A stretch of 64,000 nt of DNA. Origin: Heliocidaris erythrogramma (taxonomy: Eukaryota; Echinodermata; Echinoidea; Camarodonta; Echinometridae). The position numbers and the translations under genes were made by a program. Each line of letters opens with the position of its first letter. The first letter of the stretch is position 1. Where the stretch lies: assembly GCA_025617745.1 (NCBI GenBank), contig CM046871.1, positions 35,994,722 to 36,058,721 of the forward strand, read 5' to 3'. A model generated the notes under the pieces. It was not told where the DNA came from, searched no databases, and worked only from the letters and a program-made list of their open reading frames with translations. Below, piece by piece: positions 8,940 to 53,782 of the stretch.

Positions 8940-11237
8940 CTATTCTTTACTGAAACGTATAGCTTTTTGTATTCCTGGGTCTCTTTTTTTTAAATACTCC
9001 ATAATTTGCCCTGATTGAGATTCATTTAATTCTGATAGAAGCATTGCTCTCTCTATAATATATTTCGGACATACTATAAGGAAATGTCTGACTGTTTCTA
9101 CCTCAGGGCATCTGTCACAAAAACTGTTGGATGAATACCCAATCTTAAAAGATCTTGATTAAGACCGATAACTCCTACGCGGAGACGATGGAGTGTACTA
9201 GTTTCTTGTCTTCCCAGATTACATATATATGGGGATGTCACGATGGCTGTAATTCTTTCAAGGCTGAGTTTGTTTGATTCCATCTTTCTTGCCAAAGTAT
9301 CTTGGAACTTTGTAATATTACATGTAGTTGCTTAATTTCTGATAATGTTAATTTATTATGTATTTCTATTCTATTTGATGAAGTTGCTTTTGCACAGGAG
9401 TCTGCTATTTCATTTCCTAATATTCCACAGTATCCTGGGATCCATTCAAAATATATGTCAATTCCTTTATATTTAAGCCTAGTATATAGTTAGAATTTCT
9501 GTAATAATGGGTTCGTCATTTTGTTGATGTAAGGATAAAAGTGCACTTAGTGAGTCACTGAATATGACAACACCTGTGTATATGTTTATATCTATACCCA
9601 TTCCAGTGCAAGAACAATCGCTGCCAATTCTGCCCTATATAAGAAGAGGTAAAGTTAGATAATCTTTTTCCTTGGTATATCGAGAAATACGGTACATAAA
9701 AAGCAGCTGAACTGATCCCCTTTTCGGGTACTTTGGATCCATCAGTGTATATGTGAAGTTGGTTTGACCACTTTGTGTTTATCAATTCTAAACTATATTG
9801 TTGTAATTGAATTGGGTGATCTGATTTCTTTATTTGTGAGCTTAATTCGGTAAATATTATTGGTGGGCAGAATAACCATGGGGTAAAAGCTGGAGGACTT
9901 ATCTTTTCCATACTTTCTTTCCCTATCTTGCACTGGAGCCTATATCCGAAAGGTTTACTTACATTCTTACCTTTAAGATATTCAAATTGCCAGCATGGTT
10001 CAATATGTTTTATCAATGGATGATGGGTGTGTCTTTCAATGTTTTGTCTATAATTGCTTGACTCTGTCTTCTTAAATCTAGTGGGAGTTCTCCCATTTCC
10101 ACCTGCACTGAAGCTAGTGATGTTAAAGGCAGACCACCAGCGCATATCTTAAGTGCTTGATATTGCACTGAGTCTAGCATCTTCTTTGTAGTTTCAGCTG
10201 CACTATCATATGCTTGACATCCATAATCAATTAGGAGGGATCTTATGATTGCCCTGTATACAATTAATAAGGATTTTGACGAACTTCCCCATTTTGCTCC
10301 TGTCAAACTTCGTAGTATATTTAATTTTCGTTTACTTCTTGTAACTACATTTTCTATATGGGGATGCCAGGTCAGTTTCCTATCCAATATCATTCCTAAG
10401 AAACGGTGGGTGTTTTTATATGTCAATATACTTCCTTCCAACTTTATTACAGGTGGGGAGACATTTGTACTTTTAGTAAATAATATTGGTGCGGTTTTCT
10501 CGATGGAAAGCTTAAAACCCACTCTTTAAACCAGGAAGATAATATGTCTAAGTATGTTTGTATTTTCATCCCAATATTGTCAACATTTTTACCTGATGTC
10601 CATATTGCACAGTCATCGGCATACATAGATATTATTACTTCTGGGTCCGTTGGGGTATCTCTCATCATTATATTATATAAGAGGGGGCTCAGAACACTCC
10701 CTTGTGGGAGTCCGTTATGCAAAAGTTTCGGATTCTATGTTTGCAATTCTAACCTGGAAAGTACGTTCCGTTAAAAAAATTTCTCAATAATTTAACATAT
10801 TCCCTTGTATACAACATGAAGTGATTAAGTTTAAATAACAATCCTTCAATCCAAAGGCTGTCATAAGCCTTTTCGACATCCAAGAAAACTGCTAGTGTGT
10901 GTTCACTGCAGCTAATAGTTTTTTGAATGTCATTTTCTAGTAAGACGATATAATCAGTAGTACTACGCCGTTTTCTAAACCCACTAAGGAAGTTAGGCAA
11001 TAAACTATTCTTTTGTATACCATATTGTAATGTTTCTTTTATCATACGCTCAATAACTTTGGCAAAACATGATGTGAGTGATATTGGTCTGTAAGAAGAG
11101 ACAATTTTTGGATCCTTACCAGGTTTTAAGTTTAAGATTGGCACCAATATAGAGTGTTTTAGAGGGCGTGGGATATTTCCCGTTTCCCATATCTTATTAA
11201 TGATATCTAACATAATTTCTTTTGTAGCCTTTGGCAT
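8940..11237 (-). pseudogene. 5'-truncated, frameshifted LINE: reverse transcriptase, RNase H, C-terminal Cys/His motif
   Basis: Read from 11237 down, the frames give reverse transcriptase motifs SYRPISLTSC, FLDVEKAYDSLW (catalytic FxD), GLPQGSVLSPLLYNI and MYADDCAIW (catalytic YADD), then FLGMILDRKLTW. After a frame change there is an RNase H start, LHIYTDGSKVPEKG. After another comes HRLRVGVIGLNQDLLRLGI, and then a CPEVETVRHFLIVCPKYI motif ending in a stop at 8942-8940. This domain order (RT, RNase H, C-terminal Cys/His) is that of I-group non-LTR retrotransposons. At least three frame changes (near 10450-10520, 10013-10145 and 9300-9560) and the missing endonuclease show it is dead and 5'-truncated near 11240. 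Confidence 0.88.
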
Positions 11238-12527
11238 ACGAATTCTGCTCCAACTGACGCTTTAAAGCTACCATACCATAGCTTGCACCAAAAATCCCGT
11301 AGAGATCAGTGCAGTGGAGATATATCGATAGGCCACAAGGCCAACCCGGTACCCGAGCACTACCGCACGACTGCCGTACCATAGCTGCAGCCTAGCCCGG
11401 CCGTCCCCGACATCGATACCGTCCGCTAGATGCCCCATATTTCTGCGCAGCCTACACTAGACCTAGACAGTCGATATCTAACTTAGTCAAGATCAAGGCT
11501 CGAGGTCGAACTCCAACCGACCGTACCCGGCCGTCCACCCCCGGCCCCCATGTTTTGTTATTGGGATCTGCTCTTCTTTATTATTCAGAGGTACTGAATC
11601 GTATCATACAGTTGCAGCTCGCCGCTTGTTCCGTAGTTGTAAAAAGGGCTCCTCTCATCATGCTCATTGATTGTTATTGTAAATCGAGGGCAGCCATCAG
11701 AGGCCAAGATCAAGGTGCATCCATGAAGAAGTCATTTCAGTCGATTGTGCAACGCCAAAGGCAAACCAATAATTAAGGGAAGGTCTCGGCGAGGTTAAGT
11801 TGTATCGACACGGACACGGTCGGTGAATTAAAATTGAATCAGGAATTGAGGGAAGGATCTAGGCCTAGGCTACTGTAGGCCTAGTGTAAGTATCTCTGAG
11901 TCTCGAATCTAAGACTCTAAGACTAAGAGTATTATTAAAAGACTCCGTAAGACCAGTCACCAAGCATGCCAAGACTGCTGAGGAGAAGTAAGAGAATAAG
12001 ATCAAGATATTCAGAGACAGAGAATGAGAGATCAGAGATTTTCTGCTTAGAAATTAAACTTACTTTAATAGTCTTACTCTTAGGCCTAGACAGCTGAAAA
12101 CCGTCTGTTCGGAGGAGTCTTTATTCTTTAAGTTAACATTTTTTTAATTTTTTACCTTCTCTCCTATGTAAGGAGGTGTAGTGAAGCAAGACGTAGTCCA
12201 GCGGAACACCCGACGAACAGAGACTGAAGCTTTCAATATATCTATCTTAGGCCTTGCATTGAACTGGGTTTGGCGTTTTACAAATACTGCCTGGTAATAG
12301 GCCCTAATTAATTGACATTGTTAGATGTGTCTTACTCTTAATAATAGCCTTATTATTATTTTAGAGAATCATTGTTTATCATATCTTCATATCATATCAT
12401 TCATAATCTAGGCCTACTGTAGATTAGTTAGCATATAATTAAAGATCACCTGATTTAGTGATTATAGATCTATAATTAAAGGTTAGGCCTATCTAATTTA
12501 CTAAGTTGTCTAACTCAAGACTTTCTA
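11238..12527. other. Spacer without recognised gene; TAGGCCTA-rich
   Basis: 11240-11550 is GC-richer and unlike the LINE, but no reading frame is convincing. 11850-12500 carries several copies of the palindromic motif TAGGCCTA. No terminal inverted repeat or gene recognised. Confidence 0.4.
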
Positions 12528-15339: not shown

Positions 15340-18300
15340 GTAGATAGAGCATGTAAAAATTCACTGTTCAATTGGAGAACTGTTTAATCAAAACCATCAT
15401 ATATCACAAATAATAGATGTATATTGTTCACCATTTTAGGAAAGCAAAGTGTCTTTATTGAAATCTGACTGGCGACCAAAGGTCGAATTGCACATGTACA
15501 CAGGCTCAAATAAAATATGAATGGACATTAAAAAAAGCCTAACTTCATACATAAATATACGAATCAACATATTTAAATTCCATACAAATACAAAACAAAT
15601 ATTAAACTTATGGGAATTGTTTTTAAATAAATTGGTATGATATGGCATGGTTGCAAATTCAAATTACAAACTTATAGCAAACTAGTTTCAACAATATCCA
15701 TCCAGAAATCTACAATCCATCCAAAAGAGCTCCAGAGCAGTCAACGCCCTAATGCCTTGAAATAGCCTTCACTGTTTGGTATGGCATTGAATCATTAAGC
15801 CATGCGATGCATTAAAGATAAAGTTGAGTTCTGGTCATGAGATTGAATTGTGAAAGAAACTGTCTCAAAGCAATTGGGAAAGGTTGATTTATACAGCAAA
15901 TAAGAATAGGTGTATGCTGTAAGTTATTGGAATCACAAAAAGGATAAGAAATTGACTCAATCCTGCTGAGAGGCACGTGCGCTGCACACAGAAATATGTA
16001 TATGGGACTACACACAAATGTCTGACCCAAACATTTCAGCTGTTTCTTGCCATATTTTGAATGTGAGAGCATTTGAAGAGCAATCCTTTTCAGGGGACAT
16101 ATCTACTATGATAATCTTCCAAAGTAACAAAAGAATGAGAAAGCTCACAAATTATTTTTTACATTTTCCAGAACTCAAGCGATTCATTAAGCAATGTCCC
16201 ACAGAACAAATGTTGGATCACCTTTGTGACAAGTCTAGATATCATGTAGTACTTTCTAATCTAGCTTTTCAGACAAGATGGCTTTGCTCGGGCCCATTAT
16301 CCCTAAATCAATCCTTCAGAGCAAATCTACAAAGCAGACTGGTGAGAGTCACATCTCTGTGCCAACAATCTACATCATCCCGTGCTGCAGAGAGTATCCT
16401 AGCAGCAGACATACAGCAGGAAAGGGATCACCTGTCTGTTACAGTGGGCAACCAGAGCTTCAAAGCAAGTTACCTCTGGCTTAGAGATCATTGCAGGTAT
16501 ACTTTTTTATCACAGCTTTATGCATGTGTGAAAAGTTCATAGGCGACAATTGCTCCACAATTTCTGACAAATAGTAAGCTAAATTTGAATCCTAGACCCA
16601 ATGCTCAACTTCATCCTAAAAGGCTGGTCCTACCTGAATAATGATAAACTGTAAGCATATATAATGTACCTATAACAATAACAATAGAAGTGGTCCCACC
16701 TGAAAGATTTTGGAAACTTTAAAATTGTATCATGGGGTTCTATCAGTCGAACACAAAGGAAACTGCCTGCAGGGCATAGCTGTTCTGACGTCACATCACA
16801 GGAGTGAAATGATTCACTCACGAAGTTTATCGTTGAGATGAAAAGTAACAAAGAAATTTGCGCATGGTAACGCTTAAACAACCCACCCTGATAGGACTAG
16901 TTAAGAAAAGAAAGGCAAATTACTTTGGTCTCATCAAAAGACATTAGAGTCTCTTGAAAGATATGTTGGAATGGAAAGTAGAAGGTACTAGACCAAGAGG
17001 GAAGCCAAGAACCAACTGGGAAGAGAACATTAAGACGAGTGGAAAAAAACTGCAAGGATGCACTAGAATGGCACAGAACTGAGATGTCTGGAAAAATGTT
17101 GTAATCAACCTCCAAACCTGGAGAAAATACCACGATAGATAGACTTATTTTCCACAGGCCTTCAAACTTTCAAAATTTGTCAAATGTCTGTCTGTGACTA
17201 ACCGATCAGGGCTCCTCTCCCTACAATTCCATTAGACTGCCTTTGTCCGCCTTTGTCTTCAAAATGTTGCATGGAAGGAGTGTTATACACAGGATTGGTA
17301 GACATCATTTATCTTTTAACAGCTGTATCACTTATTTTTTTAACAATAAGTGAATTTTCAAGAGCCAGATTTGCACGCCTAATGCCTTGTAATATATTTA
17401 CATTATATTGGACGGCTCTGAATGGGATACCAGAGAATATTCCACAAGTTAGGGCCAATATTGCACGAATCGAAGATGAGTGCAATATTGGCCCTAACTC
17501 GTGTCATATTTTCTGGTATTCCATGAAATAAAGCCATCCAATATAATTATTATTATCTATACCCAACAGGAAAATGATTTGGAACTTAATAAAAATCATG
17601 TAACCAACCACATTCAGTTAAAGGGATACTCAACCGCAGATTATGGACGTTTGAATGCCGCAAGAGGGCACCGTGATTGTTGCCCTGTGGGGCGCAAACC
17701 TCGGACAGACTGGTCGCCGCACAGCATGCACGCTCCGCCCGAGCTCGAGCTTTCGTGCGAAATTCGGTCGGCTTTGTGCAGTCGAAATGTAATCCCACTG
17801 AGTCCAACGGACGCGTTCGACACACAAACTTTGTTTACGAGTGAATGGGGCTTACGCAATCCAGACTTTCCCCACGGCCGCCTGGTGTCCTATCCCTTTA
17901 ATAGAGCCCCTCATCATACTTCATTGTGATCACACAAGTTTGAGTTAACCTCTTTATGACGTCATGTGCGTATGCGCGCACACAAACAGACCAGACAAAA
18001 TACGACATAATACTGCACGGCAAGTTTAGTACTGTAGCCTATGGGGAATTCAGCATTCCGTGCAATATCCTCTCATATTGCAGGTGCAAATCAAGCGGAC
18101 CAAAATATGTCTTTTTAATGCGCCGCTAAAATGCCTTATATAAGTAATAATGTTAAAGGAGAATTAAGCCCTGATTACAAATTTACTTATATTGGAAGGT
18201 ACAATATATTCCTACTTATTGGCCTAAATCATTTTCTAATAAGATATCAGAAAAGGGTATAAATAAAGATATTCCAACACCCGGTATCGTCTCCTACTCA

Positions 18301-19748: not shown

Positions 19749-22700
19749 GTCACATTCTTGTGTGCGCTCTAGCGGTCGCATTTCTCGACGATTTTTTTTC
19801 AAACTTCCTGTGGACGTGTATCTTGGTAAAATCTGGACCCCTATAGTTTCTGGTGATGCTGCCCCAGTGTTCCGTCTTTTATAGGGTAAAAGGCCATATT
19901 TTTTTGGATAGTTTGTGTGCGCTCTAGCGGTCACATTTCTCAACGGATTTTGTTCAAATTTTGTATGGAGGTGTCTCTTGGTAAAATCTGGAACCCTATA
20001 GATTTTGGTGATGCTGCCCCCAGTGTTCCGTCTTTTATAGGGTCAAAGGTCATATTTTGATAGATGTCTTGTGTGTACTCTTGTGTGCGCTCTGGCGGTC
20101 ACATTTATCAACGGATTTCGTTCAAATTTTGCATGAAGGTGTCTCTTGGTGTAATTTAAAAACCTATAGTGTTTGGTGATGCTGCCACCAGTGTTCCGTC
20201 TTTTATAGGGTCAAAGGTCATACTTCAGGGCATGGCGTGAGTGCACTCTGCAGGCCACATTTCTCAACGGATTTTGTTCAAATTTTGTATGGAGATGTAT
20301 CTTGGTATAATCTACACATGTTTAAGTTTTGGTGATGCTGCCCTCATTGTTCCGTCCTTTATAGGGTCAAAGGTCATTTTTCCATTTCTTGCACTCTTAC
20401 TTCTGCATTTCTCAACGGATTTCGTTCAAATTTTGCATGAAGGTGTCCCTTGGTGTAATCTAAAAATCTGTACTTTTTGGTGATGCTGCCACCAGTGTCC
20501 CGTCTTTTATAGGGTCAAAGGTCATACTTCAAGGGATGGCGTGAGTTCACTCTGCAGGCCACATTTCTTGATGGATTTCTTTCAAATTTTGTATGGAGAT
20601 GTATCTTGGTATAATCTACACATCTTTACTGGTTGGTGATGCTGCCCTCATTGTTCCGTCCTTTATAGGGTCAAAGCTCATTTGTCCCTTTTGTGCAATC
20701 TTACTTCTGCATTTCTTGACAGATTTCATTCAAATTTTGTATGGAGATGTATCTTGGTATAATCTACACATATTTAATTTTTGGTGATGCTGCCCTCATT
20801 GTTCCGTCCTTTATAGGGTCAAAGGTCATTTTTCCATTTCTTGCACTCATCTGCATTTCTTGACGGATTTCGTTCAAATTTTGTATGGAGATGTATCTTG
20901 TTATAATCTACACATATTTAATTTTTGGTGATGCTGCCCTCATTGTTCCGTCCTTTATAGGGTCAAAGGTCATTTTTCCATTTCTTGCACTCTTCTGCAT
21001 TTCTTGACGGATTTCGTTCAAATTTTGCATGAAGGTGTCTCTTGGTGTAATCTAAAAACCTATAGTTTTTGGTGATGCTGCCACCAGTGTTCCGTCTTTT
21101 ATAGGGTCAAAGGTCATACTTCAGGGAATTGCATGAGTGCACTCTGCAGGCCACATTTCTTGATGGATTTCTTTCAAATTCTGTATGGAGATGTATCTTG
21201 GTATAATCTACACATCTTTACTGTTTGGTAATACTGCCCTCATTGTTCCGTCCTTTATAGGGTCAAAGCTCATTTGTCCCTTTTGTGCACTCTTACTTCT
21301 GCATTTCTTGACGGATTTCATTCAAATTTTGTATGGAGATGTATCTTGGTATAATCTACACATATTTAATTTTTGGTGATGCTGCCCTCATTGTTCCGTC
21401 CTTTATAGGGTCAAAGGTCATTTTTCCATTTCTTGCACTCTTACTTCTGCATTTCTTGACGGATTTCGTTCAAATTTTGCATGAAGGTGTCTCTTGGTGT
21501 AATCTAAAAACCTATAGTTTTTGGTGATGCTGCCACCAGTGTTCCGTCTTTTATAGGGTCAAAGGTCATACTTCAGGGCATGGCGTGAGTGCACTCTGCA
21601 TGCCACATTTCTTGATGGATTTCTTTCAAATTTTGTATGGAGATGTATCTTGGTATATCTCTCAACACATTTCTTTCAAATTTTATATGAAGATGTGTCT
21701 TAGTGAAACCTACACATCTAATTTCTACACCATCCTTTTGTTTGAGGGAGGGGATGGGGGAGGGTCTTTGTCCCTCCTTCAAATCGCTGCCAGTGCCGGG
21801 GGATACATTTAGCATTGCGCGGCCCCAGCAATGCACATTTCTAGTTATTGCTGTATTCCCAGTGTGAAAACAAATGTGTAGGAAATTCTTCCCATAAAGC
21901 CTCCTAGCGATTATCATACATGTACTAATGTAAAGGTCGAGGTACACATGTTATCGCATGTTTGTTTTGCTAACACATCTGGATCTTGTGATCTAACTTC
22001 TTTTCTTCATGCTCTGTTGTGAATTACAAATGCTCTCAAATATAAGGGCTATAAATTTCATATTGAGTAAAATTTCTCTCAGTAGTAATGCTTTTCTTGC
22101 AGTGTAACACTGATTAATCTGTGAGTCATAGCCCACTTGTCAGAATATAGATCAAAGGTAGCGTAATCTTTAAAAATAAAAGATAAAATATAAAATTTAA
22201 AAAATAAAAGTTGAGTACTGGCCGTGCGATTGCATTGTATTAAAAAGAAAATGTCGCAAAGTTACCAGTATTCGTAATGGTTGATTATGTAGTACATAAG
22301 AATCATTTATATTGTGAGGTTTTGGAATCACAAAAACGAATTCCCCCAAGCTTGCTAAAATCACAAAAGTGAAAAGCACTGCGCACTGATTCTATATGGG
22401 TATGTTGGACTACAAACAGATCTAGCATTAGAATTTGGTCTAAAGTTTTAAACCATTATTAGTTATAGTAATATTATATTCAGAATATGAAGAGTAATCC
22501 TATTCTTCATTTTTTGCATTTTTTTTGCATTTATTCTGCATTGAAAGATGCAGGAATAATAATAATAACGTCTATTTATATAGCGCTTTTCAGAAGTAAA
22601 GTAATATCAAAGCGCTTTACATATTACGATACTATTATTACCCCGGTCCTCGGATTCTGACATGCCCGCACACAATGTGTGCACTTAATCCTCTCCCTGG

Positions 22701-25700
22701 GGAGTATTCCAGCAAGAGCAGCACAGTGGGGCTCAAATTGCTAAACAAACGACATTAACTTTCGCATCCTACCGGGTACTCATTTAACACCTGGGTGGAG
22801 AGTGGCAAATGTAGATTAACGTCTTGCCAAAGGACGCTAGTGGTGCGGTGGGATTCGAACCCTGGACCTCGTGGTTCACAGTCCAGGGACTTATCCACTG
22901 ATCCACAACACCTCTACAATGAGAATGATTCAACTTTAGCAGGACTTATGCCTCTCGTGTAGAGATGTTATGGACTGTGAACCACAAGGTACGGGGTTCA
23001 AATCCCCAGCCCAGCACCAATGTCTCTTGGCAAGACATTAATCTGCATTTGCCACACTCGACCCAGGTGAGGTAAATGGGTATACTAGAGCGCCGTAAGA
23101 ACAGCCATGCTGAAGCCAGGGTAATAATAGTAGAGCACCAGGACTGTCGAGTCGGACAGACATATGAGCTATACAAGAACCCACAATTACAATTATTATG
23201 TAACCTTTTCTTTCAGATGTAGCACTTGTTATGAGGAGGCATGCCACGAAAACTTTGTGGATATTGTAGCTCTGCCTGAGGACATCAAACCAAAGGAATG
23301 CAACTACGAGAATGGCAATCTGCACCTGACCTGTAAGATTTTGTAGAGTCTTAACCCATTGTCTACAAGAACTAGATGTTCCCTGTATAAAGCCTATAGG
23401 AATGAGATAATTCAGTAGTCATCTGGGGAGCGTTTCGTCAAGCGTTTTGTCAGTGATTTTTACCAACAAATTTGCTCTCAGCCAATCAGATGCAAGGATT
23501 TCAGTAGCTTATAACAGTTGTCGGTGAAAATCACTGACAAAACGCTTGATGAAACGCTCCCCAGGTTTAGTAGGACCAATCACAACATGTTTTGGTATGA
23601 ATATTGGCAGGTTCCTTGCCTACATCATATATTCAAACTATCAGCTTCATATATTACTTCTGGTAAAGAGATATCGCAAGTTTCGATACTGAATCCTGCA
23701 AAATTTGAATGACATTTTTACTGTTTATGCTTAACACAATGGTGGCCACAAGGTAAAAGCTGAGCTGTGAAATTTCACTTGGGACCCTTAAATTTTTCAA
23801 ATATGAACAGGGGCCTGTTATACATGAATGGACCACATTGTTATGCCATAGACTCCAAGGAAATGAAAGTTATTGTGAAACCCTAATATAGTGAGGTAAG
23901 AGATATCATTGATCAAAATTAAATTTCCAAACTTCTCTTTGAAAAGTTAAGCCTCGTTCCCTTATGATGCCCATAGCACTCCCTGCCGAGCAAAATGAAT
24001 GACATAAGCGTAGTGTGCCTCATAGTTCTGTATCTTACTTATAACAGAGATACCTGTATATATTCAAGTGCATAAAATCTGAGGGGCCTTTGTTATGCGC
24101 AAATTATTTTGTCCTCGCCCAAACTTGCGACTCATTTACTCGTACTATCATTTTTATTATGCTGCGTCATGTGTGAACGAGCCTGTAATCTTCTTCTCGG
24201 CAGGGCCTGATGATCATGTGACCAGCTACTCCATCCAATGGCTACAAGACAATGTACCAGGTCAGAGGTCACCTGCATCCAGCCAGCAGCTACAGCCATT
24301 CTACTGGGACAAGACGAGCCTGACCACCAACCTCCCGAAAGATGTCCCAGTTGATGCGGTCCGGGAGGGTGACGGACTGAAGAGGGTCATGGAGAATCTT
24401 CACGTTTATGGATTTACGTTCATCTCAGGATTGGAGGCTACGCGGGAGAGCACAGAGGTGAGAGGAATACATTGATGTTTGAAGAGAATCCTAGCCCCAA
24501 ATCAAGTTTCTGATTGAAAAAAACTTTGGGGGAGCGTTTCATCAAGCGTTTTGTCAGTGATTTTTACCGACAACTGTTATAAGCTACTGAAATCCTTGCA
24601 TCTGATTGGCTGAGAGCAAATTTGTCAGTAAAATACACTGACAAAATGCTTGATGAAACGCTCCCCAGAGATGCACATAAACAATGAGACAAATAGTAAT
24701 AACTTTTCATTACGCTGATAGCTTTCTGTTATTGTCACAACCGTTTGTCTTATTTTGCTGCAAAGCAAGTTACGATCTTCTTGAACTGGGTCAGTACAGT
24801 GAAGTGGTCATGAACCCCATCATATCTTTCATGTAATTTGTTTATCATTCTTATCTAAACCCTCATTGAATAATATAATAATAATAATAATATGTCTTGT
24901 TTACCCAGGGTAGCTTCAGTAGTACTAAATACTGTTATCCCTGAGGGCCCTGCATATTATTACCCCGGCTTTAACATGGCAACCGTAGCGCTCAGTGCAT
25001 TCAAGGAATAAATCTACCAGGTACCCACTTACTCCACCTGGGTTGAGTGTGGCAAATGTAGATTAATGTCTTGCCAATGTGTTCTACATGTATATCGAAC
25101 AGGACTGCATTGTCAAACATTGCTTTGGAGGGGCTTCACAAACCATTATCTTTTGTATTCTGAGACTGAACCTTTCCTCAAGCACTCAAACCGCCCGAGA
25201 ACGCCTGTAGACTTTGACCCATTTAACAACGAATGTAGGGGATCGGGCTCAATAAAAGTGTGTGTGTGCTATAAACTGTTTAGAATCTGCATCACAACAA
25301 CGCGTTACTGCAGAAAGATTTTGCATACAGCAGAGAGACTATTGCAAAAGATGGTTAACTTAAGGGGTAGTGTGAGCAGTAAATGACTACAATCTCCAGA
25401 CTCTTCAAGTGCTAAAGGGTTAAACATACTAAATACTCAAAGTACCATGTAACCTTTTCGGTTATCAGTATGAGAGAACAAAAATCAAATTGTGATGTGA
25501 AGAAAATGTGATGTGAAATATTTCTCTTACATAAGGGAGATTTGTATCAGTGTTGGTACAATTTAAAACGGCTTGATATTTTTTTCCATATTGCAGATTG
25601 AGATGAAAAATTAAGAAATACATAAGACACTAAATTGTTGATTTTATTGATGTGACAAAAAAATCCAATCAAAAATCTTTGTTTGATTTTAAACATTTTT

Positions 25701-28700
25701 TAGCTAAGAATTTGTCCAGGTTTTTGTACTCCAAAAAAATGTCTGATATAGATCTACCAAAAGAATATGTTCCTTTTCTATTGGAGCAACATTTAGTCCT
25801 ATAACTAAAGAAAATCAAATAAATCAATGTAAATCAAATAGATTTTTATTATTTGCCTCTGACGAAGATTCTGCTAGGATCGAAAGCTCAGCCCCTTTTG
25901 ACTCCATTTTACTCCATTGGCTCGCTATTATTGGATAAGCAGTTTTCAGCAGCTTGTTTTCGACATTTAAAAAAAAGCTCATTTCTTTTTTTCAGTCCTG
26001 CTCCAAAGTGTTTTTGTAAAGCATACTAAAGAGAAAAGAAGTAGAAAGAGACAGTTTTCTCTCAACACACTGAAAATGATTATCTTTTTTGGGCGTAATT
26101 TTTAAATAAGTTGTTTCAAAGAGTTTAAGATTGATAAATATTCTTCATGGTTCTGTTGAGACCGACTTCGGATAAAGGATATGTATTACCATTATTTCTT
26201 CTGTCATGCTGTTAAATCATTAGGTACAAATAATTGTTCTTGATTGTTATCAGTCATATTTCATTTGTGCTTTTGAATTATGTATCTTCTATATTGGTTC
26301 TGCTTGAAATTCATGTTGTGTCATAAAATACAGGAAGAATTATAATACAATGCTCTTTTTTCTGATTCCTCCATTTCAAAATCCCTTTATTCCACCTTTG
26401 TGATATTGTTTTTCTTTTCTCTTTCTAATATTCTTCATACTGCACAAGTGAATGAAAATCTAGATAAAAAGCAAATCTCAATAAAAAGCAAATCTCAACA
26501 TTATGCTGACTACTTTAATCACCCCTCCATTCCATCTCTTAATATTTAAACCCTTTTTGACTCCTCTCTGCTCTTCTTCCTTGTGCACCCATTCTGTTTC
26601 TGCCCCCTCCATTTTGCACCCTGCCCATCTGTTATTCTCCATTGTGTACCCCTTTTCTATCCCTTTCTGCCCCCCCCCCCCCCTTTTTCCCCTCTCTGGC
26701 CCTATCCTCTTTTGCACCATTTTCTATCCCTTTGTACTCATTCACTGTTGCCTCCTTTTTCCCCCTCTCCCTCTTTCCTTCTCTCTGTTTTGCACCCCTT
26801 TCTTCCTCTAACCGCCCGTCTCCGTTTTGCACCCCTTTCTTTCTCTATCCGCCCCTCTCTCCGTTTTGCACCCTTCCTCCGTTTTGCACCCTTCCTCTAT
26901 CTGCCCGTCTCCGTTTTGCACCCTTTTCTTTGTCTATCTGCCCCTCCCTGTTTTGCACCCTTCCTCTATCTGCCCTTATCCGTTTTGCACCCCTTTCTTC
27001 CTCTATCTGACCTTCTCCGTTTTGCACCCCTTTCTTCCTCTATCTGCCCTTCCCTGTTTCGCACCCTTCCTCTATCTGCCCGTCTCCGTTTTGCACCCTT
27101 TTCTTTGTCTATCTGCCCCTCCCTGTTTTGCACCCTTCCTCTATCTGCCCGTCTCCGTTTTGCACCCCTTTCTTTCTCTATCCGCCCCTCTCTCCGTTTT
27201 GCACCCTTCCTCCGTTTTGCACCCTTCCTCCGTTTTGCACCCTTCCTCTATCTGTCCCTCTTCGTTTTGCACCCTTCTTCTATCTTCCCTTCTCCGTTTT
27301 GCACCCTTTTCTTCATTTACCTCTTTACCTCGTCTCTATTGTACATCCTTTCTTACTCCTCTCTGCCCCCCCCCCTTCCTTGCTGCTCGATACCCCTAAC
27401 AGGAAGCTCTACACCTAGTTGCTCCTCCCATGTATACCCACTATGGTACGGTATGGCAGTATCAGAATGATGGAGAGTTAGCGGATGCAGGGTATACGTC
27501 TGTGAGTCTCAAGGACCATACAGATCACACTTACTTTGAACATGGTGCAGGGTAAGAGTCTTTCAAAAATGCAAGCCTTTCTATCTTTACCCCTCCCAAG
27601 CCTCACTCTCTTTTTTAGTTTTGCAAGGTGATCCCTCATCTCTTCCCCCCCCCCCTATTTTCTACCCCTGGTGCAGTGTCATGAATTAATTCAATCCTTC
27701 TTTCTCACTATTAATAGTGATGCAGTATAATTTTTACACTATATGCAAGCCCTTACTTCTCTATCCCTACTTCTCTCTCCCTCTCTTTATTTCTGCTGTG
27801 TATTTTTTGTAGATCGTGTAAGCTCTTATTTTTTTTTATCGCCACCTCTTTCTATCTCTCTCTCACCCTCTCCTCCTATTCCTTAATGATGCAGTTTAAT
27901 GTTCATAAAGCAAGCCTTCGTGTCTATATCCCCAATTCTCTATAGCTCTCGCTCTTTTTTTCCTTTTTCGTAGGATGCAGAGTGATAATATTGAGCTTTC
28001 GATTTGTGACAGGTAAAATCTAGTAGGGTAACTGGAGACGAAAATCGATCTGCGCATGAGCGAAATCCCGATTCTCTCCGTACCGCAGAATTTAACGACG
28101 GTCATCAGGCAAAATAGTACGGAGAGCGGCAAATTTCTGTGCGATGCATGCAAACAACTAACGTCACACACATTCTCCCGTAGCTGTCGCGTGGACGGAA
28201 ACGAAATGGCTTCAGAACAGGACGGGAGCTTGGGTGCGAGAACGGTCAGTACGTCAAATCCCCCGTACCGTGCGTCTCCTGTCGCAGATGGAAAGCTCGT
28301 TATTGAAACACTAAGCAACTTTCATATCTGTATCCCTCTCCTGATTCTCAGTACATCCATGCATCTATTTTTGTTGGAAAGTGCACTGTAAAAGTGGATA
28401 TTTTTGCATGATTAATTTTTCGCGCTCGGCTGAGTAAAGTGAATTTCGCATGTTTTTAATTTCACCGACGCGCTAGGCTCATGGGCAAAAAAATACATAA
28501 AGAAAAATATTCGCCTGTTTTTATTTTCGCGCACATATCATGCTACGTGAAATGCGCGAAAATTTCCACACCGCAAAATATTTCACGTTTACAGTATGTG
28601 AAAGGTTGTGTATTTGTCTGTTATGCCAGACACTAGCATGTAGTACAAAGTTCTTTTTAGTACATCTATGTGTCTATTTTAGAGCAAAGCATCTACATGT

Positions 28701-31700
28701 ATGAAGAGTTGTGTATTTGACATGTTTACCTGATATTAGTGTGTATCCCAAGGTTATTTACTGTGTTGTTGATGATTCTGCATGGTATCTGTATACAATG
28801 TTGTTTAAATAACTGTGCTTGTCTCTTATACCAGGGGAGCATTTCATCAAGTGTCTTGTCAGTGATTTTTACCGACAAATTCGCTCTCAGCCAATCAGAT
28901 GCAAGGATTTCAGTAGCTTATAACAGTTGTCCGTAAAATTCACTGACAAAATGCTTGATGGAACGCTCCCCAGACATTAATGCGGTTTTGATTCTCTCAC
29001 TGAATGTCGACTATAAGTTGCTCGAGCATGAAGACAAGCACAGTACCCTTTCCTCTGTGTGTGGAGAATTAGTATTTAAATCTGCAGACTTATCAAATGA
29101 ATATTAATTGTACCCATTTTGACCATTAAAGTGCTGATTATACATAAAAAGGCTTCAGATTATAGATTTCAAGCTGTTTTGTTAGAACTTTCCTCATTGC
29201 CGATTTCATAACAGTGTGAACAGACCAGAATTTGACTCGGCTCATGTGGTAGGATATGGAGGGCGACATGATCGCAATGTGAATCTCTTTGAAAAGCAGG
29301 TTTGGAAGGATTATCAGTAAAGGGAAAGAGTGCAATATGGTATTTGTGTACCTCAAAAGCCAGAAGATGTGTGCTGCAGGAGTTATAGATTGCAGTTGTA
29401 GTTTGGAAATCACATTGTCTGCCGATTTTTCCCAATACCAAGTGTTTATTTATTATATCCTCAGGAATGCAGTGTGGGTGTATGATTTACGGGTCTTATT
29501 ATATTATGCATACCGTTCAATAGCTTTAAATTGTTGTTGCCTCGAGGGATATTTATTTGAAATATTCTTCTCCCGATGTATTTTCTATAAGGTAGCTTAA
29601 CGAAACTCCATGGCGTATAAAGACGCAGGAAAGAAGCAAAGAGAAAAGTTGCTCCTTTTGTTTGTCATATTATTTTGCTTAAAACTGTTCAGAGGTTAAT
29701 ACTCGTTCTACATCCTAATATTTTTGTTCTGCCTCTATAAAATACAATTTAAATTTTGAAATAATTTTTGTCATATACATGCTTCTTTCCCTTGTTTTTA
29801 CGTGCCACGACGTTTCGCTATTAAAGCTACCTAACACAACCCCTAGACTACCGAGGCCTCTTTTCCTGCATTATGAATAGTCTATTCATGCCTTTGTCAT
29901 CAAAGACTATATAGCCCTTGGCATTGTAGTTTTCCATTTTGTACCGACTCTTGCACATGTCGTATCAAGACCTTAACCCCTAGCATGCCGTGGGCGGCAA
30001 ATCCCACCCAAAATTTTGAGTGTTGAATATTTTGTTTAACCTCTGAATGGCCTGAAAGTTCTTCCTCATACAGAAACCTGTGCCATCAGTATAATGTTTA
30101 TTCTTATGCAATATAACTTTGCCCAGTTTGCTCAAGAAAATTAACTCTTTGAAAGTTAATATTGAAAAATCATTTTTAGCATTTGCTCAAAAGTCTGGTG
30201 GCATGGAAGGGGTTAAGGGAATTTGGGGTCAATTTTTTTATTAATTGTTCTTCTCACAAGTTGCTTTTACTGTGATTTTGGTATTCATGCTTCCAATGTC
30301 TCTTTCCAGAAGTAATTATTTACAGCTGACGGATATTTTTAAGACAGTATGCGACCATGGAACCCCAAAGTAAAGAGCAAGGAATAAGCCAGTTCGGGGT
30401 TAGCGCATGGTACAAATGACTCCAAATATCCACAGATATTTTAGACATGGAGGGTCCCTTCATGTGCACTTCAGAAAAATAACTCTGGGAGTGATAGAGG
30501 TGCCTCATGAATAGCTATTGTTTCCCCCTTTAAAAAGAATACTTCCACCTGGATATCATGGAATGCGCCATTAGTGCATAATTGAATAATGATTACATGA
30601 CATTCATGAGCACATATCGAATATTAGTGTCAGTGGGTTTTAGAATTTGGTACAGATGACCTTTATCTGCTCATGCTCAGATTGCATCTCTGAAGTGGCT
30701 TATTGTTAGGTGATTGGTCCCCTTATATGTGTGAAATTCAATCATAGAATTACAGTGAAATCTGTAAATAAAGACCACTCAATTAAGGGAGACCAAAATG
30801 TCGACTGGGGTGTTGCAAGAAAGTTGCAATCAATTGCAAATTTGTAAAGCAAATTAGAACAACCATTCTGAATGGTTCAGGCTCTGCCCATTCAAGAAGA
30901 TGCGCTTGCAACAATGATTTTGATTGGTCAGTACCGACCAGTTGCAACTTGCAATCAATCGCAACTTTCTTGCAACACCCCATTAAACTGGTAGAATTCG
31001 AAGAGCACTATCTTACAGTCATTCTTAACCTTAAGAGATTAGTTGCATTTTATTTTGATTTCTAACCAAAAAACTTGCTTGGAAAATGAGCACATATTAT
31101 TTCTGACTTGCAAACGTAGAAAATTTCCCAGCAAGTACATTCATGCCTCGTGTGTGTACAGTCCCATGTACCCATTTATGTGTGCAGTGCATGTGCTTTT
31201 CAGTGAGCTTGGGTCAATTTCTTATTTTGATGATTCCAAAACCTCACAGTATACACCACTTCTTATGTAGACATGATCAACCTTCCCCAATTGAGTTTGA
31301 GACAGTTTCTTTCTCAATGTAGTCGCATGACCGGAACTCAACTGGGTCAATCCACATCATATCAACTGATGGGTGTCACCCGACCCCCTCCAATTTTCTT
31401 TAAACTCGCACCAAATGTTCCCCCAAGTGTCTGACGGAAAACTCCAAAATATTTTGCCCCAAGGTCAAACGGTTGCTAAGATATGGCCTCGCCTAGCAAC
31501 CAATGCACAGACAAACCAACAGGGCTAATTAAACTTATGCATTTTTGATTGACAAATGTAGCCAAAATTCTTCACACAGGGAGATCATTGTCTGGATATT
31601 GAGAGAACTTTATGCCCTTTACAAAAAAGATAATCATGACACAAATACGATTCTCCGTTTTCATGTACAAGGTCACCAAAAATGACATGAACTGTAAAAT

Positions 31701-34700
31701 CTGTGATTTCAAGTGTATGTTTGGAGGTTCATAGCTTCAAAATCAAATAAGCTTAGGACCCAATATTTTGTATATTTGAACACTTTTAGTAATTGAACAA
31801 ACCTTTAAAAAAAATCAGAACGTTTGTCCAAGCGGTTTTGCTAAAGAGCGCCCTCAAATTAGGGATATTTTCAAAATAAGCCAAGTTCAAAGTCATAGAT
31901 CTCCCTTAGTCCAATCTCGGAACACCACCAATTCTTGTGTATGGATAGGCATTTACCTATATTTTAACAAGTTACCAAAGAAATTTTGCGTCCGGAATGT
32001 TCAATGGCCAATGTACACTGTCGAAAGTGGTCATAAACGCATCAAAATCAAAAGAAAATTGACATATGGGCTAAAGATCATATTTCAAATGTTAATTTCT
32101 TCAAGATAAAAGGGCCATGCATAGTGATATTAACAGTTATGGTAGTATGTTATAGGTACTAAAAGAATATATACTACTGTAAGTTTGTTTTGTAGGAGAA
32201 TGACCTTGAAATCGCTTCTCAAAGTCAACAAAAAACATACACTTAAAATATGCTCATTTCTGGTCACCTGTGACCTTTATAGCATATTTCATAATTGATT
32301 TTCTCACAGACCCTAAAAAAATCAGAATGTAACCATCCTGATTGGTCAAATAACACCACTTGACCTTGCAAAAAAAAAGTACTTACGCACGGCAAAAAGG
32401 TACTAACACACGGCTGAGCTGCACCTACGCGTACAAACTTAAACGCAATGAAATTGTGTGGTTTAATTGTCATTTTAGCGCAGGGATTACATGCGCGCAC
32501 TGCAACGCGCATGACTTTTGTTGGCTACTCTTATGTGATGTCATCCAGGAAAGCGAATGGCAGCCTCCATGACTGTGCGACTCTTGGCATTTCTGTGAGG
32601 CTTGTAACGTAACCTATTTTTATAGACTTCATAAACATATTGCCGACCCGTTTTATAAAACTATTAATACATGGTTGTGAGTTTGTGCGTTAGTGCGATC
32701 CAGCAACACGTAGGTTTTTATCGAAAACACGCGGCTTGCGCCTCGTGCGTATAGTACACCACGATGAAAATCTTTTTGTTGCCAGATCGCAGGAACGCAC
32801 TCCCAACCATGTATTAATAGTATAATATCCCATCTTCATTTATTCTGGGTATATCTATTCAACAATGAATATTTGTATCTTACGTCAGGCGGTACTAAAT
32901 CTTATCAGTAAGCCTATGCCGACCCTGTTTGGGGACACTTGGTGTTACCAGAATGATGGAGCACTCTCTGATGCTGCATCTCTAAACATAACGCTTCAGA
33001 ACCATACTGATACTACATACAATGAAGGCAGTGCAGGGTAAGCAAAGAAAATGCTGTTTGCTTGCTTCCAAGGCCAAAAGATGCTTGCTTCCAACTATTC
33101 CAATCATAATAATAACAATGATGATAATAAAAAAATTCTTGTATGGCTCTCATATACATCATGCAAAGTGCTAAAAACACTACCCCACATTTACATGTAG
33201 CTCTGCTTCTAGTTTCTTTGCTCACTGCATTCAAGGAATCCTTCCCGCATAATAGGTACCCATTTACTACACCTGGGGGGTTTTTCATAAAGCTGTTCGT
33301 AAAGTTACGCATGACTTTATGAACAACTTAAATATGACAAGCCAAATGGGATGCTTAATCATTTTTAACTGCATCAACTAAAGTTGAAGTGTGCAGATGT
33401 ACATGTAGATTAACAATCTTATCATAACAAACATTTTAAATGCAAAGTATATTTTTTGCCGTAATTTAATTGAGGTTATTTGAAATATAGTCACATTTTG
33501 TTAAAACATCAGGAATCCTATTGGGCATCCTATCTGGCACTTCATGTTCAAGTCATTCGTAAAGTCAAGTGTAACTATACGAACAGCTTTATGAAACAAC
33601 CCCCCTGGATGGAGAGTGGCAATTGTAGATTAATGCCTTGCCAAAGAACTGCAGTGACATGCCAGGAGTCAAATCCACGACCTTTGCATCTCCAACCCCC
33701 TGGATGGAGAGTGGCAAATGTAGATTAATGCCTTGCCAAAGAACTGCAGTGACATGCCAGGAGTCAAATCCACGACCTTTGCATCTCCAACCCCCTGGAT
33801 GGAGAGTGGCAAATGTAGATTAATGCCTTGCCAAAGAACTGCAGTGACATGCCAGGAGTCAAATCCACGACCTTTGCATCTCCAGTCCAGTTCTTATACC
33901 ACTATTGGGGTGTTGCAAGAAAGTTGCAATCAATTGCAAATTGTAAAGCAAATTAGAACAACCATTCTGAATGGTTCAGGGTCTGCCCATTCAAGAAGAT
34001 GCGCTTGCAACAATGATTTTGATTGGTCAGTACCGATCAGTTGCAACTTGCAATCAATCGCAACTTTCTTGCAACACCCATATGACACCTACTTTTTTCA
34101 AAGCCATAACAAAAAGCCGTACAAGGCAGTACAAGTATTTTTTAAAAAAGCGTAAAAAGAAGGGAAAAAATCTTACTTTTATAACTCATCCAACACTTCA
34201 ATTATACTATTCCTTGTTATTGCCCTGCATCTCATTGTAGTGTATAATGTATGTGTCTTTCATTTACCTAGATATATTTTTCACTTTCTATATTTTTTCA
34301 TCCCTCCCATCTCGTTTACACTCTTCTATTAATCTGGTTTATAATCTTTTCACTAATATCAACTTTTGTAACAGTACGTAAAGAAAATCTTGCCATTTGA
34401 TTTGCTGATTTTGCACATCACCAGACCTTCTCCAAACCATGCAAGTTTTCTTCAAGCAAAATGGATACTGCATGTTCAATCATATTAATCCATCTACCTG
34501 CATGTGTTGTCATAAGTGGACAGTCATTGCTTGATCACCGATTTAAATAGCAATACATGTATTCATATTCACCCATAGTGGAATGTTTACCCAGGGTAAC
34601 CACATCAGTGAGTAACACTGTTATACTTGCAGGCCTTGCATTCCTAAGATAGAAAACATTTTAGTTTGAAAGATGTAGCATTCTAATCAACTCATACCCC

Positions 34701-35097
34701 TTTCAAACCAAAGGTCCAGTCTGTAAGGAACAAGAGAAAAGTTACCCGCGTAAAGCCGAACAACTTCCCCACGTAACTTCTAATGAGGTAGAGAACTTAC
34801 GCGGGGAAAGAGAGTGTCAGCGGATAAGTGGTCAGTTTGAGAGGTTGGTGGAGAACTTCCCCTGTGAAATATGTCTGAGATCAATTATCACTTCCGGCTG
34901 GTCACACCGTGATCCCAAGTCGTCGTATCATTATCATTATAGTTATGTGTATAGTTTGATGCATTCAGTTCAGTGAGTTAACGTTGTATATGTTGTACTT
35001 TCTTTTGTATATGTACGTATAGCACCACTAGTGTCATGTTTGACGGACATAAGAGCTTTATAAGAAGCCACATTATTATTATTTTTCTCATTATTAA

Positions 35098-35133
<36 letters not shown>

Positions 35134-38100
35134 CAGTGGTAGTAGTAGTAGTAGTAGCAGCAGCGATAGTAGTAGTAGTAGTGTTATCAATAAATTTATT
35201 ATAATATGGCAATAATAGGATGTTGAGATCCTTTCAATGCTGTGGAGAAAAGGACCATTTAGTTTTGAATCGTTGTGATAACATTCTGTGAATAATTGTG
35301 CAATTATTTGTTTTTCAGAGGCCTTGCCCTACATTGCATCTACCATGATGGTGGAGGAGGTGAAAACACTCTTGTTGATGGGTTCCATGCTGCAAAACTC
35401 CTAAAGGTAGTACAGTGTAACCTGTCTATAAAGACCGCTCAAGGGAGACGAGAAAAGCGGTCTTTATGAGCAGGTGGTCTTTATGTACAGGTTCCTTTAA
35501 TACACATGTCAATGAGAAACACTTTTCAAGGGAAACGAAAATTGTGGTCTTTATAGACAGGTGGTCTTTCTATACAGGTGGTCGCTAAAGCAGGTTTGAC
35601 TGTAATTTGTGTTGGTCAGAATTGCAAGTTTTGGCAATGCTGTGGTATCTGTCCAGTATGATACAGTGGAAATTCGCTATAACGAGGATCTTGGAATTAT
35701 GAAAATTACCTTGTTATATCTGGGGGGTGTTTCATAAAGCTGTTCGTAAGTTACGCACGACTTTACGAACGACTGGTGATCAGTTCTTGTGCTAAATGAT
35801 TGAGAATCTGATTAGTATAGCACCCAAGAACATGTTCCAGTCGTTTGTAAAGTCATTTGTAACTTTACGAATAGCTTTATGGAACACCCCCCAGGAATCT
35901 CCTTATATTGGGGTATAAAAGCAAAAGAACATAAATACCTGGGACCAGAAAAATCACCTTTTTATATCAGGAATCTCGTTATAACCGAGCTCTTTATATC
36001 AAGTTTCCACTTTATCAGGGTTTTATTCTTGTAATTCAATTCAAAGATAAAACATCCCTTGATATGAGCAATGATTATTGGTGGAAATACCATGACGAAC
36101 CTTTGATTAATGGTCATATCAAGAGATTTTAATTTTTGGATGAAATAAATGGATAAAATAGTTATGTCATAATGGTGCAAATTTACTGACTTTTTCATTG
36201 ATATAATTGCATTTTCTTATGGTGTATTAGCACAGCATTAATTCAAAATATAATCACTATGGATTTTGTGAGAAAATTGCTCTGTCCATGGTGTAACAGC
36301 TCAATAATTATTAGTTATTGTCATAACAAAATGAATATGGACTTGTTGAAAACGTGTTCTTCATTGTAAGCCTTTGTTATGTGTTAATGTGCCCCTCCCC
36401 TCTTCCATACGGCCTCTTCCATAGATGCAGGCTAGGTTAAAGAGTAAAACACTCTGTCCTCAGATAGGACGTTAAATGGAGGACCTATGAATAGAAGAGT
36501 TCATCTCTTATGTACGTTAAAGGGCAATCCAACCTTGGTGATAAGTTGATTTGTGTGAAAGCAGAAAAATAAGAAAAACAGGATTGTGAAAGTTTGAGAG
36601 AAATCGGACAAGGAACAAGAAAGTTATGTTTGAAAAATGAAATCAGTACATCTATGTGAATCTCAAATTGGCAATTTGGTGAGTCGATTGTGACATACTT
36701 GTGGACAACTCTCCTGTTTGTCGTACAGAAAAATATTAATTTGCGGTTTTCTCCGAAGCGCCTTTACCCTCGGGGCAGTACTCAAAATATATTGGATATA
36801 GCATATTGTTATAGGTCTTCATGAAAGAAAAAAATCCTGAGTAATAGATTTTGAAAAAAATGATATCTTAGCCATTTTGTGTGTTGGAGCGAATGGGAGA
36901 GTTGTCCGCAACTACATCAGTGATGTTACCTATTCGGCCAATTTGAAATTCCCATATGTATAGTTATTACAACCTTCAAAAATTCATAACTTTCTTATTG
37001 TTTGTCCGATTTCGTTCAAACTTTCACCAATCTGATTCTCTGATTTTTCCTCTTTCATTCAGAGCAACTTGCCATTAGGGTTGGATTTCCCTTTAAGAAC
37101 CTACTGCACCCTTCTTCTAGGAGTAGGGGAAGCCCCAATCAGTCATGCCAGGAGGATAGATCCCTGGGTCAATCAGCATTTTTCTGCTGGAGACCAGAAA
37201 AGCAGCAGAATGTTTTACTTATAATAAAAATTCAGCACTAACACCTATCAGCATGTAACGAGTCAGGTTCTACTAAAGCACAATAAACTGTTTATCTGCA
37301 CAGCACAAAAAATTTAGTATGTACCCCCGGATGTCTAGAAAGTGGCTGCTGCATGGGCCGGACGTGCACATTATGTACGTATTGTAACACGTGACCTTAT
37401 TACAGTTTGGTATGGAGTTCGATTCCCTGCCGTAGCACTGCCATCCTTTGGTAAGACATTGATATACTGGTGGTGTAAAAAAAGTTTTACCTGATTGCTA
37501 AGAAAGCATGTGTATGCTATCTTAGCAATAATAATAGTAATTATTATTATTAAGTATTTGGCATCACCTGTGCCTGGGAGGGGAAAAAACGAACTGAATC
37601 ACTGTAACCCTTAGGTCTCTCCTCCCGATATAACTGATTTGGACGTGCAGGTGTACCACTACACCGGGGTTTCCCCCTTCTCTTACTCGAATAGTGCCAT
37701 GTGTAATTAATAATTATTCTGACTTACCTTTATAGGAAACCCATCCTGAGCATTACAGCACCTTACTGCATGCTCCTGTGGTAGGACACTATTTGGATGA
37801 AACAAGAGACTTCCGTTGCTACCACAATGTGTTGCGCCACAACGTGGTGACAGGCCAACTACAACAAATCAGGTATGGTGACGTTGATCTTAATTAACCC
37901 TAAAAAGACGGGGGGGGGGGGGGGGGGGGGGGGGACGTTTCGCATGATAACTCCGGAATGCGAAAAGCTTTCACCGCGCCGCTCCGTGACTTTTTACTTT
38001 CAAGTCTCGCGCAACTCGCTTGTGCATGCCGTTTGAAAAAAGTTTGTCAACCCCAAAATTGCTCAGAAACGTGATTTTGTGTACAAAGTCAATGCAAATT

Positions 38101-51310: not shown

Positions 51311-51427
51311 GGCTGTCATTAACAAATTGCGAAAGTTTTATGTAGCGAAAGTTTCAGGTTTAACATTAGACTTTTAATAAACATATTTACCGGTAATGAA
51401 TGTTGAATAGTGCCTTCGTCAGTACTG

Positions 51428-51563
51428 GGGAGCGTTTCATCAAGTGTTTTGTCAGTGATTTTTACCGACAAATTTGCTCTCAGCCAATTAGATGCAAGGA
51501 TTTCAGTAGCTTATAACAGTTGTCGGTCAAAATCACTGCCAAAACGCTTGATGAAACGCTCCC
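51428..51563. mobile_element. CWG-MITE, family M1, copy 4
   Basis: 136 bp, flanked by CTG on both sides (51425-51427 and 51564-51566). Confidence 0.8.
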
Positions 51564-51566
51564 CTG

Positions 51567-52340
51567 ATGTTTTCTGTCAACGTGTTGACATGGTTTCCTG
51601 AGGTACTGTACTTGACCACTCACACATATGCAAGGTTATTGTAGATATAACTCTGTCAAACACATATTTTTACCTGAAAGTGTCCTAAAAATCTTCATCT
51701 GCAAAATTCATGTCACTTTGACTATGTTTAATGCATGTTAAAACTGTTGATCTTCTTGAATAAGTTTCCCATTTGAATCAGAATACAAAATGACTGATTG
51801 ATTTTTCAATATTTGAGATAAAGATAAAGATAAAATTATGATGCGTCATATTTTTCTCCCCTTCGTTTCAGGTTTTGTTTTTCTTCTATGTTTTTGAATT
51901 CCCTGAATGACCTGTTGAAGATGCTCCTGTACGTGATCCACCATTTGGTATTCTATACATCTACAATACATGTACCACATTTAATACATGAACTTGCTTT
52001 ATAGGAAACGGCTTCCTAGAGCCAGGACGTTGTTTAGACATTAACGCCATTCTGATTTCTAGCAGATGCAATCAAATGCCATGACACTCCTGTTCATCCA
52101 GAAAAAATATAATCCACGTCTGCGCCTCCCCGTCCCTCACCCCACTCCCCTATACTTGTTTGTTTATATAGTAAGTTAAAGTGTTCATAGCTTGTTGTTA
52201 TGAGAATTTAGAGCAGGAAAAGGAAGATGAACAGCTTAATCTCATATGTAATGCTATCAAGGACAATCGCTACCCGAAAAACGTCCATATTGATTTTTGT
52301 CTGTCCAAATGATTGGTTAGAGTTTGAGCTTCATGGGTGC
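51567..52340. other. Spacer, nothing recognised
   Basis: AT-rich, no repeats or exons that I can support. Confidence 0.45.
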
Positions 52341-53282: not shown

Positions 53283-53782
53283 NNNNNNNNNNNNNNNNNN
53301 NNNNNNNNNNNNNNNNNNNNNNNNNNNNNNNNNNNNNNNNNNNNNNNNNNNNNNNNNNNNNNNNNNNNNNNNNNNNNNNNNNNNNNNNNNNNNNNNNNNN
53401 NNNNNNNNNNNNNNNNNNNNNNNNNNNNNNNNNNNNNNNNNNNNNNNNNNNNNNNNNNNNNNNNNNNNNNNNNNNNNNNNNNNNNNNNNNNNNNNNNNNN
53501 NNNNNNNNNNNNNNNNNNNNNNNNNNNNNNNNNNNNNNNNNNNNNNNNNNNNNNNNNNNNNNNNNNNNNNNNNNNNNNNNNNNNNNNNNNNNNNNNNNNN
53601 NNNNNNNNNNNNNNNNNNNNNNNNNNNNNNNNNNNNNNNNNNNNNNNNNNNNNNNNNNNNNNNNNNNNNNNNNNNNNNNNNNNNNNNNNNNNNNNNNNNN
53701 NNNNNNNNNNNNNNNNNNNNNNNNNNNNNNNNNNNNNNNNNNNNNNNNNNNNNNNNNNNNNNNNNNNNNNNNNNNNNNNNNN
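53283..53782. other. Assembly gap, exactly 500 N
   Basis: A round-number gap, meaning that the true distance is probably unknown. The left contig ends 140 bp after the polypurine tract. The right contig begins in TMLHE intron 6 sequence already present at 37704. Confidence 0.98.

Follow-up and report, generated by a model that had tools for sequence, protein, structure and literature searches.

We analyzed a window of 64,000 nucleotides from the sea urchin Heliocidaris erythrogramma (assembly GCA_025617745.1), comprising positions 35,994,722 to 36,058,721 of contig CM046871.1 (C19, 37 Mb), within a searched genome of 1.06 Gb in 26 contigs. The mitochondrial COX1 of this genome is best translated with TGA as Trp, AAA as Asn, AGA as Ser and ATA as Ile, which is the echinoderm/flatworm code, and it looks like a sea urchin COX1. 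The window contains a gene for trimethyllysine dioxygenase, TMLHE, on the + strand. Its model begins at a possible start codon at 16210, ends with the stop at 39792 and has GT-AG borders at every intron. Two of its exons, A and B, appear to be alternatives to one another, and they are the subject of this study. The coding exons are as follows.

16210 to 16496, + strand: first coding exon of TMLHE, its start Met tentative (the start codon is guessed), with a likely presequence and the start of the GBBH-like N domain
23217 to 23332, + strand: TMLHE exon 2 of the gene model
24204 to 24457, + strand: TMLHE exon 3, ending in phase 0; TIGR02410 match at 24206-24457
27403 to 27551, + strand: first of the two alternative exons (A), encoding the cage and the HxD strand; residues Y, W, D, Y, H, D, all canonical
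32889 to 33037, + strand: second of the two alternative exons (B), encoding the cage and the HxD strand; residues F, W, D, S, H, D
35319 to 35406, + strand: TMLHE exon 6, directly after the A/B pair, with a phase 2 acceptor; TIGR02410 positions 197-222, 20.6 bits
37736 to 37872, + strand: TMLHE exon 7 (penultimate) of the gene model
39519 to 39792, + strand: TMLHE exon 8 (last coding), with the distal His, the 2-oxoglutarate Arg residues and the stop at 39792; TIGR02410 91.7 bits

Exons A and B are each 149 nt in length, entered in phase 0 and left in phase 2, with AG before and GT after. Exon A opens with GAA following ...CTAACAG and closes with AGG before GTAAGAGT; exon B opens with GCG following ...CGTCAG and closes with AGG before GTAAGCAA. 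The two encoded segments are identical at 24 of 50 residues, with the sequence HTD in both. An initial annotation of this DNA had proposed the pair, and its coordinates, lengths, phases, splice sites and residue identity were all confirmed on the sequence, together with the iron-ligand content that it ascribed to both exons. At the nucleotide level 83 of 149 positions are identical (31/50, 31/50 and 21/49 by codon position). A and B are thus neighboring homologous exons of equal length and equal phase, one of the criteria for mutually exclusive tandem-duplicated exons. A search of the genome with the DNA of exon B returned a single location.

Splicing of exon 3 to exon 6 through either A or B gives a protein of 434 amino acids in each case. 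As 149 nt cannot be divided into whole codons, inclusion of both exons or of neither leads to an early stop, in agreement with the frameshift that had been predicted for the double inclusion. This arithmetic fits the use of just one of the two exons per mature mRNA. With A and B joined the stop falls at 32898, 10 nt into B and upstream of three junctions; with neither it falls at 35348, with later junctions still downstream. Since these early stops lie upstream of later junctions, under the rule of nonsense-mediated decay both products should be removed. By exchange of A and B the TMLHE gene could yield two enzymes with different substrate pockets.

Both isoforms exceed the cut-off of the NCBIfam trimethyllysine dioxygenase model TIGR02410 (295.7 bits for isoform A and 288.3 for B, cut-off 268.3), which bears out the assignment to TMLHE made earlier, and exons A and B alone score 34.7 and 25.6 bits against the same model. 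Both miss the cut-off of 414.75 for the gamma-butyrobetaine dioxygenase model TIGR02409, with scores of 214.3 for A and 205.7 for B. Each isoform also matches two Pfam domains, TauD and GBBH-like_N, the latter at residues 69-148. The top-scoring solved structures are those of human BBOX1 (PDB 4bg1 and 3ms5), against which A scores 148.3 bits and B 131.7. Across the genome the TIGR02410 profile gave 59 exon matches among the best candidates scored. Six of these are on C19. Two are the only cage exons among them, A with 31.5 bits and B with 22.0 bits; the others correspond to exons 3 and 6 and to two copies of the last exon. The other matches lie on contigs C3, C7, C11, C12, C14, C17 and C20, and to judge from the TIGR02409 search they look mostly BBOX-like. 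That search gave 79 matches, a few of them from the TMLHE gene itself, with A listed at 14.5 bits. The genome has many gamma-butyrobetaine-dioxygenase-like exons, several of them clustered on C12, C14 and C20, and some with variants of the His-x-Asp motif such as HVD, HND and HLD.

By alignment with BBOX1, the exchanged exon encodes the substrate cage together with the first and second iron ligands. At the positions of BBOX Y177, W181, N191 and Y194, alignments to the BBOX1 structures give Y, W, D and Y for A and F, W, D and S for B. By the alignments and the numbering of human TMLHE, Y217, W221 and Y234 are the likely TMLHE counterparts of the BBOX cage residues. In that numbering A keeps Tyr217, Trp221, Asp231 and Tyr234, while B keeps the Trp and the Asp with Phe217 and Ser234. 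The three-residue aromatic cage of Y217, W221 and Y234 is thus complete in A, and is F, W, S in B, a conservative change at Y217 and a loss of the aromatic residue at Y234. In BBOX the trimethylammonium group is held by Tyr177, Trp181 and Tyr194, and the carboxylate by Asn191 and the main chain of Tyr205 (PMC13257696). The activity of TMLH depends on Y217, W221, Y234 and D231, the last of which corresponds to BBOX Asn191 and is placed near the alpha-ammonium group (PMC7764450). Asp231, which is Asn in BBOX, is present in both A and B.

The cage positions were compared with 86 bacterial relatives, 80 of them collected for their similarity to an alignment with isoform A as its first row and six chosen by hand. 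A scan of bacterial genomes with a single sequence found no relative, whereas the alignment-based search did find them. At the Y217 site the relatives have F in 62, Y in 15 and W in nine, and the Phe of B is therefore ordinary. The Y234 site is different, with Y in 66, F in 10, M in nine and S in one (aromatic in 76 of 86). It is also Tyr or Phe in all 11 readable cage segments of paralogues within the same genome; these are the separate readable places among 26 scanned loci, some of which overlap and two of which had been fetched for other exons, and the count leaves out others such as those on C17 and C12 near 42.9 and 43.0 Mb. The next residue is T in 84 and S in two of the bacterial relatives, and Leu in B. 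H242, D244, H389 and R391 are present in both isoforms and in 86/86 relatives, N334 is kept in A, B and 81/86, and the second 2-oxoglutarate arginine, R398, is invariant in an alignment of eight rows. There are two sites where B, unlike A, has the common bacterial residue (Ala in 77/86 and Ile in 59/86), and both exons deviate from some sites of the bacterial consensus, for example a Pro found in 86/86. Exon B appears to be fitted for iron and 2-oxoglutarate, with one wall of the cage gone. The initial annotation had suggested a difference in substrate preference. This is plausible. It pointed to residues following HTD (246 and 249 in its own numbering, 261 and 264 in the present model, whose start codon is guessed), but the stronger evidence is found further upstream in the cage, in the changes Tyr217Phe and Tyr234Ser in B.

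We asked how exon B compares with a copy that has drifted neutrally. Substitutions were simulated without indels, at a kappa of 2, until the observed A/B nucleotide identity was reached, with 5,000 runs starting from A and 5,000 from B. In none of the 10,000 did the amino-acid identity or the BLOSUM score remain as high as that observed. The open frame survived in 14% of the runs from A and 20% of those from B, and HTD in 1.4% and 1.9%. On a profile of the exon built from the 86 bacterial relatives A scores 33.9 bits and B 24.4, while none of 6,000 drifted copies attained 24.4; the maximum was 17.9 for the 3,000 derived from A and 11.3 for the 3,000 derived from B. These simulations support the earlier proposal of selection on both exons. 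Exon B thus has little resemblance to a copy in decay, and its conservation goes beyond what neutral drift would be expected to leave. The G+C content of third positions is 19/49 in each exon, lower than in exons 1-3 (111/219) and exons 6-8 (93/166), and being equal in A and B it does not tell them apart.

A tree of 13 exon rows, which has 34 columns and leaves open seven of its 10 inner forks, groups A with B as sisters at a support of 97/99. The branch leading to B has a length of 0.75 and that leading to A a length of 0, again from 34 columns only. B looks like the derived and faster copy that is nevertheless still within the family. The exon tree gives no support to an origin of B by separate capture from a paralogue of the BBOX type. 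The donors of A and B are moreover both in phase 2, while most of the readable paralogues seem to have theirs after a full Gly codon. We also considered a tandem duplication of the whole gene as the source of B, but this is not supported: tblastn with the remaining exons detected no additional copy within the window besides those of exons 7 and 8 in the 3' contig overlap.

We consider it probable that this is an old tandem duplication of a single TMLHE exon, giving two mutually exclusive alternatives that are policed by the reading frame, one of them specifying the canonical enzyme and the other an enzyme with an altered pocket. From the sequence we infer that both forms are expressed, that the exons exclude each other and that catalysis is altered. 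One exon would have been duplicated long ago, with the two copies now spliced in singly. The A form would be an ordinary trimethyllysine hydroxylase. The B form would have the same iron ligands H242, D244 and H389, the same 2-oxoglutarate arginines and the same Asp231, in a cage that is opened at Tyr234 by Ser and altered at Tyr217 by Phe, and for that reason its substrate range is probably changed or its activity lower. The reading frame would be the simplest keeper of exclusion, with competition between the exons or a tissue factor selecting which of them is used.

A number of observations weigh against this interpretation. The acceptor of B has 15 pyrimidines in 27 positions, the lowest of the seven acceptors, where the others have 16 to 20 and A has 20. 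Exon B scores below A on TIGR02410, TIGR02409, BBOX1, TauD and the bacterial exon profile, and it is absent from the genome-wide TIGR02409 matches up to an E value of 10. The excess of A/B differences at third codon positions (28/49, compared with 38/100 at first and second) speaks for constraint but is marginal, with a Fisher P of 0.035. NG86 gives a dN of 0.51 and a dS of 2.62, but dS is saturated and dN/dS no more than a hint, so that the argument for constraint leans on the simulations. The 86 bacterial rows are biased and non-independent, being rich in Halomonas-type and Rhodobacter-type sequences. Finally, the loss of Tyr234 could simply make a weak enzyme.

This last point leads to an alternative that we regard as unlikely, in which isoform B is spliced and translated but weak or dead on trimethyllysine, and mixed dimers damp the enzyme so that splicing tunes the output of carnitine. 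TMLH is a homodimer in which Y217 and Y234 are important for activity (PMC7764450), and in B the aromatic residue at Y234 is lost and followed by Leu at a position that is otherwise almost always Thr. Yet all the iron and 2-oxoglutarate ligands that were checked are kept, whereas a dead isoform would need no HTD in B, and Asp231, a residue of the trimethyllysine type, is kept as well.

A further proposal, which we put forward tentatively as a possibility, is that the B form, with Ser234 and Phe217, may hydroxylate another alpha-amino acid, one with no trimethylammonium head on its side chain, with A acting on trimethyllysine, such that splicing would switch between carnitine synthesis and another hydroxylation. 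Asp231, which lies near the alpha-ammonium group in TMLH, is retained in B.

B might be a poison exon added after A, reducing the level of TMLHE mRNA by frameshift and decay, with its protein content a leftover of the duplication. The stop 10 nt into B with three junctions downstream would suit such a role, but a poison exon needs no conserved protein, and B is open in the family frame with a profile fit far beyond neutral expectation; we consider this improbable. That B survives intact by chance, as an unused remnant of the duplication of an exon or of the whole gene, is very improbable. B does evolve faster than A and the third-position bias is marginal, but set against this are the rarity with which neutral drift keeps the frame or HTD, the failure of any of the 10,000 simulations to reproduce the joint result, and the absence from the window of other duplicated exons besides 7 and 8 in the contig overlap. 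It is scarcely credible that a promoter specific to B drives a distinct, shorter transcript that begins with this exon. The 21 codons preceding B are in open frame and include an ATG, but the product would be without the N-terminal domain and the likely presequence, and the AG acceptor of B matches the position of that of A in the protein exactly.

Mutually exclusive tandem exons may also be kept apart by a device in cis, such as a short intron, incompatible U2 and U12 sites or the docking of RNA elements. Steric interference between the splice sites is unlikely, as A and B are separated by an intron of 5337 nt, to be compared with the intron-length threshold for a steric block. An incompatibility of U2 and U12 sites was set aside, since by comparison with the U12 motif both exons seem to have splice sites of the U2 type. 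Each exon is enclosed by an inverted repeat, as follows.

24529 to 24666, + strand: left arm of the inverted repeat around exon A, 138 nt, 91% alike, partner 28834-28971
28834 to 28971, - strand: right arm of the inverted repeat around exon A, partner 24529-24666
30942 to 30985, + strand: left arm of the inverted repeat around exon B, 44 nt, 86% alike, partner 33903-33946
33903 to 33946, - strand: right arm of the inverted repeat around exon B, partner 30942-30985

We did not adopt these repeats as an ancestral device for looping out the exons. Such pairs enclose 19% of the window (arms no more than 5 kb apart), exons 2, 3 and 6 are enclosed as well, and with arms 91% and 86% alike the repeats look younger than the divergence of A from B. 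They could have an effect on splicing at the present day. The arms around exon A belong to a hairpin-forming repeat of about 140 nt, resembling a miniature inverted-repeat transposable element, that occurs in both orientations in the gene and downstream (24529-24666, 28834-28971, 23422-23562 and 51425-51573). The hexamer TGCATG occurs in the introns around A and B at 28145, 28405, 28779, 31188, 34469 and 34499. These are six occurrences in 24458-35318, where equal base frequencies would give about 2.7, an excess too weak for a claim.

Human TMLHE and BBOX1 are not known to have a duplicated cage exon. The prolyl 4-hydroxylase P4HA1 is in the same Fe(II)/2-oxoglutarate superfamily, and its alternative exons 9a and 9b are not known to contain the HxD iron motif that both TMLHE exons have. 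Human TMLHE and BBOX1 are of the same enzyme family as the gene described here, and exon A has the same cage (PMC7764450; PDB 4bg1, 3ms5). P4HA1 resembles the TMLHE pair in the mutual exclusion of its exons 9a and 9b (PMC11868403). In ACSL6 a mutually exclusive pair swaps an aromatic residue, Phe or Tyr, in the gate for the fatty-acid substrate; this is an acyl-CoA synthetase with a gate motif of 26 residues, and metal ligands in the swapped exon are not described in the part of that report available (PMC1543647). In coq-2, exons 6a and 6e of helminths, annelids and molluscs are mutually exclusive, remodel the core and switch the substrate (PMC7434440). There too exons of equal length (134 nt in C. 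elegans) alter the core of a metabolic enzyme; that enzyme is, however, a polyprenyltransferase, and the evidence includes C. elegans RNA, exon-deleted strains and quinone levels, whereas the TMLHE pair is known from sequence alone. Among human genes, 236 events of tandem exon duplication are counted (PMC9741552). Pocket-reshaping exons of mutually exclusive use are already known, and what is unusual here is that the iron-binding strand and the trimethyl cage lie in one swapped exon. No case of swapped exons in TMLHE was found among the matches listed from the open literature searched, and a review of carnitine in Drosophila gives no splice form of the TMLH gene in the part available (PMC7767417).

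If both forms are made, the gene would provide a natural experiment on the choice of substrate by TMLH and BBOX, with the cage tyrosine present or absent in one animal according to splicing. Carnitine synthesis would also gain a regulated branch point at its first step, and alongside coq-2 this would be another metabolic enzyme with a pocket swapped by splicing, here including the iron-binding strand.

Some further features of the region were observed. The segment 37704-53282, which holds the last two exons (7 and 8) with about 13 kb of the sequence that follows them, recurs at 53783-69982, running past the end of the window, after a gap of 500 N at 53283-53782. The copies are about 98.6-99.8% alike over most of their length and 94.7% in one repeat-rich piece, and the copy of exon 7 adjoining the gap has small indels. 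This looks like unmerged contig ends or haplotypes rather than a second gene. Intron 1 contains a tandem array at 19772-21743, with 11 copies of a unit of about 145-170 nt that are 73-100% identical to the reference copy. On the - strand at 9101-11261 there are open stretches that we take to resemble pieces of a non-LTR retrotransposon reverse transcriptase.

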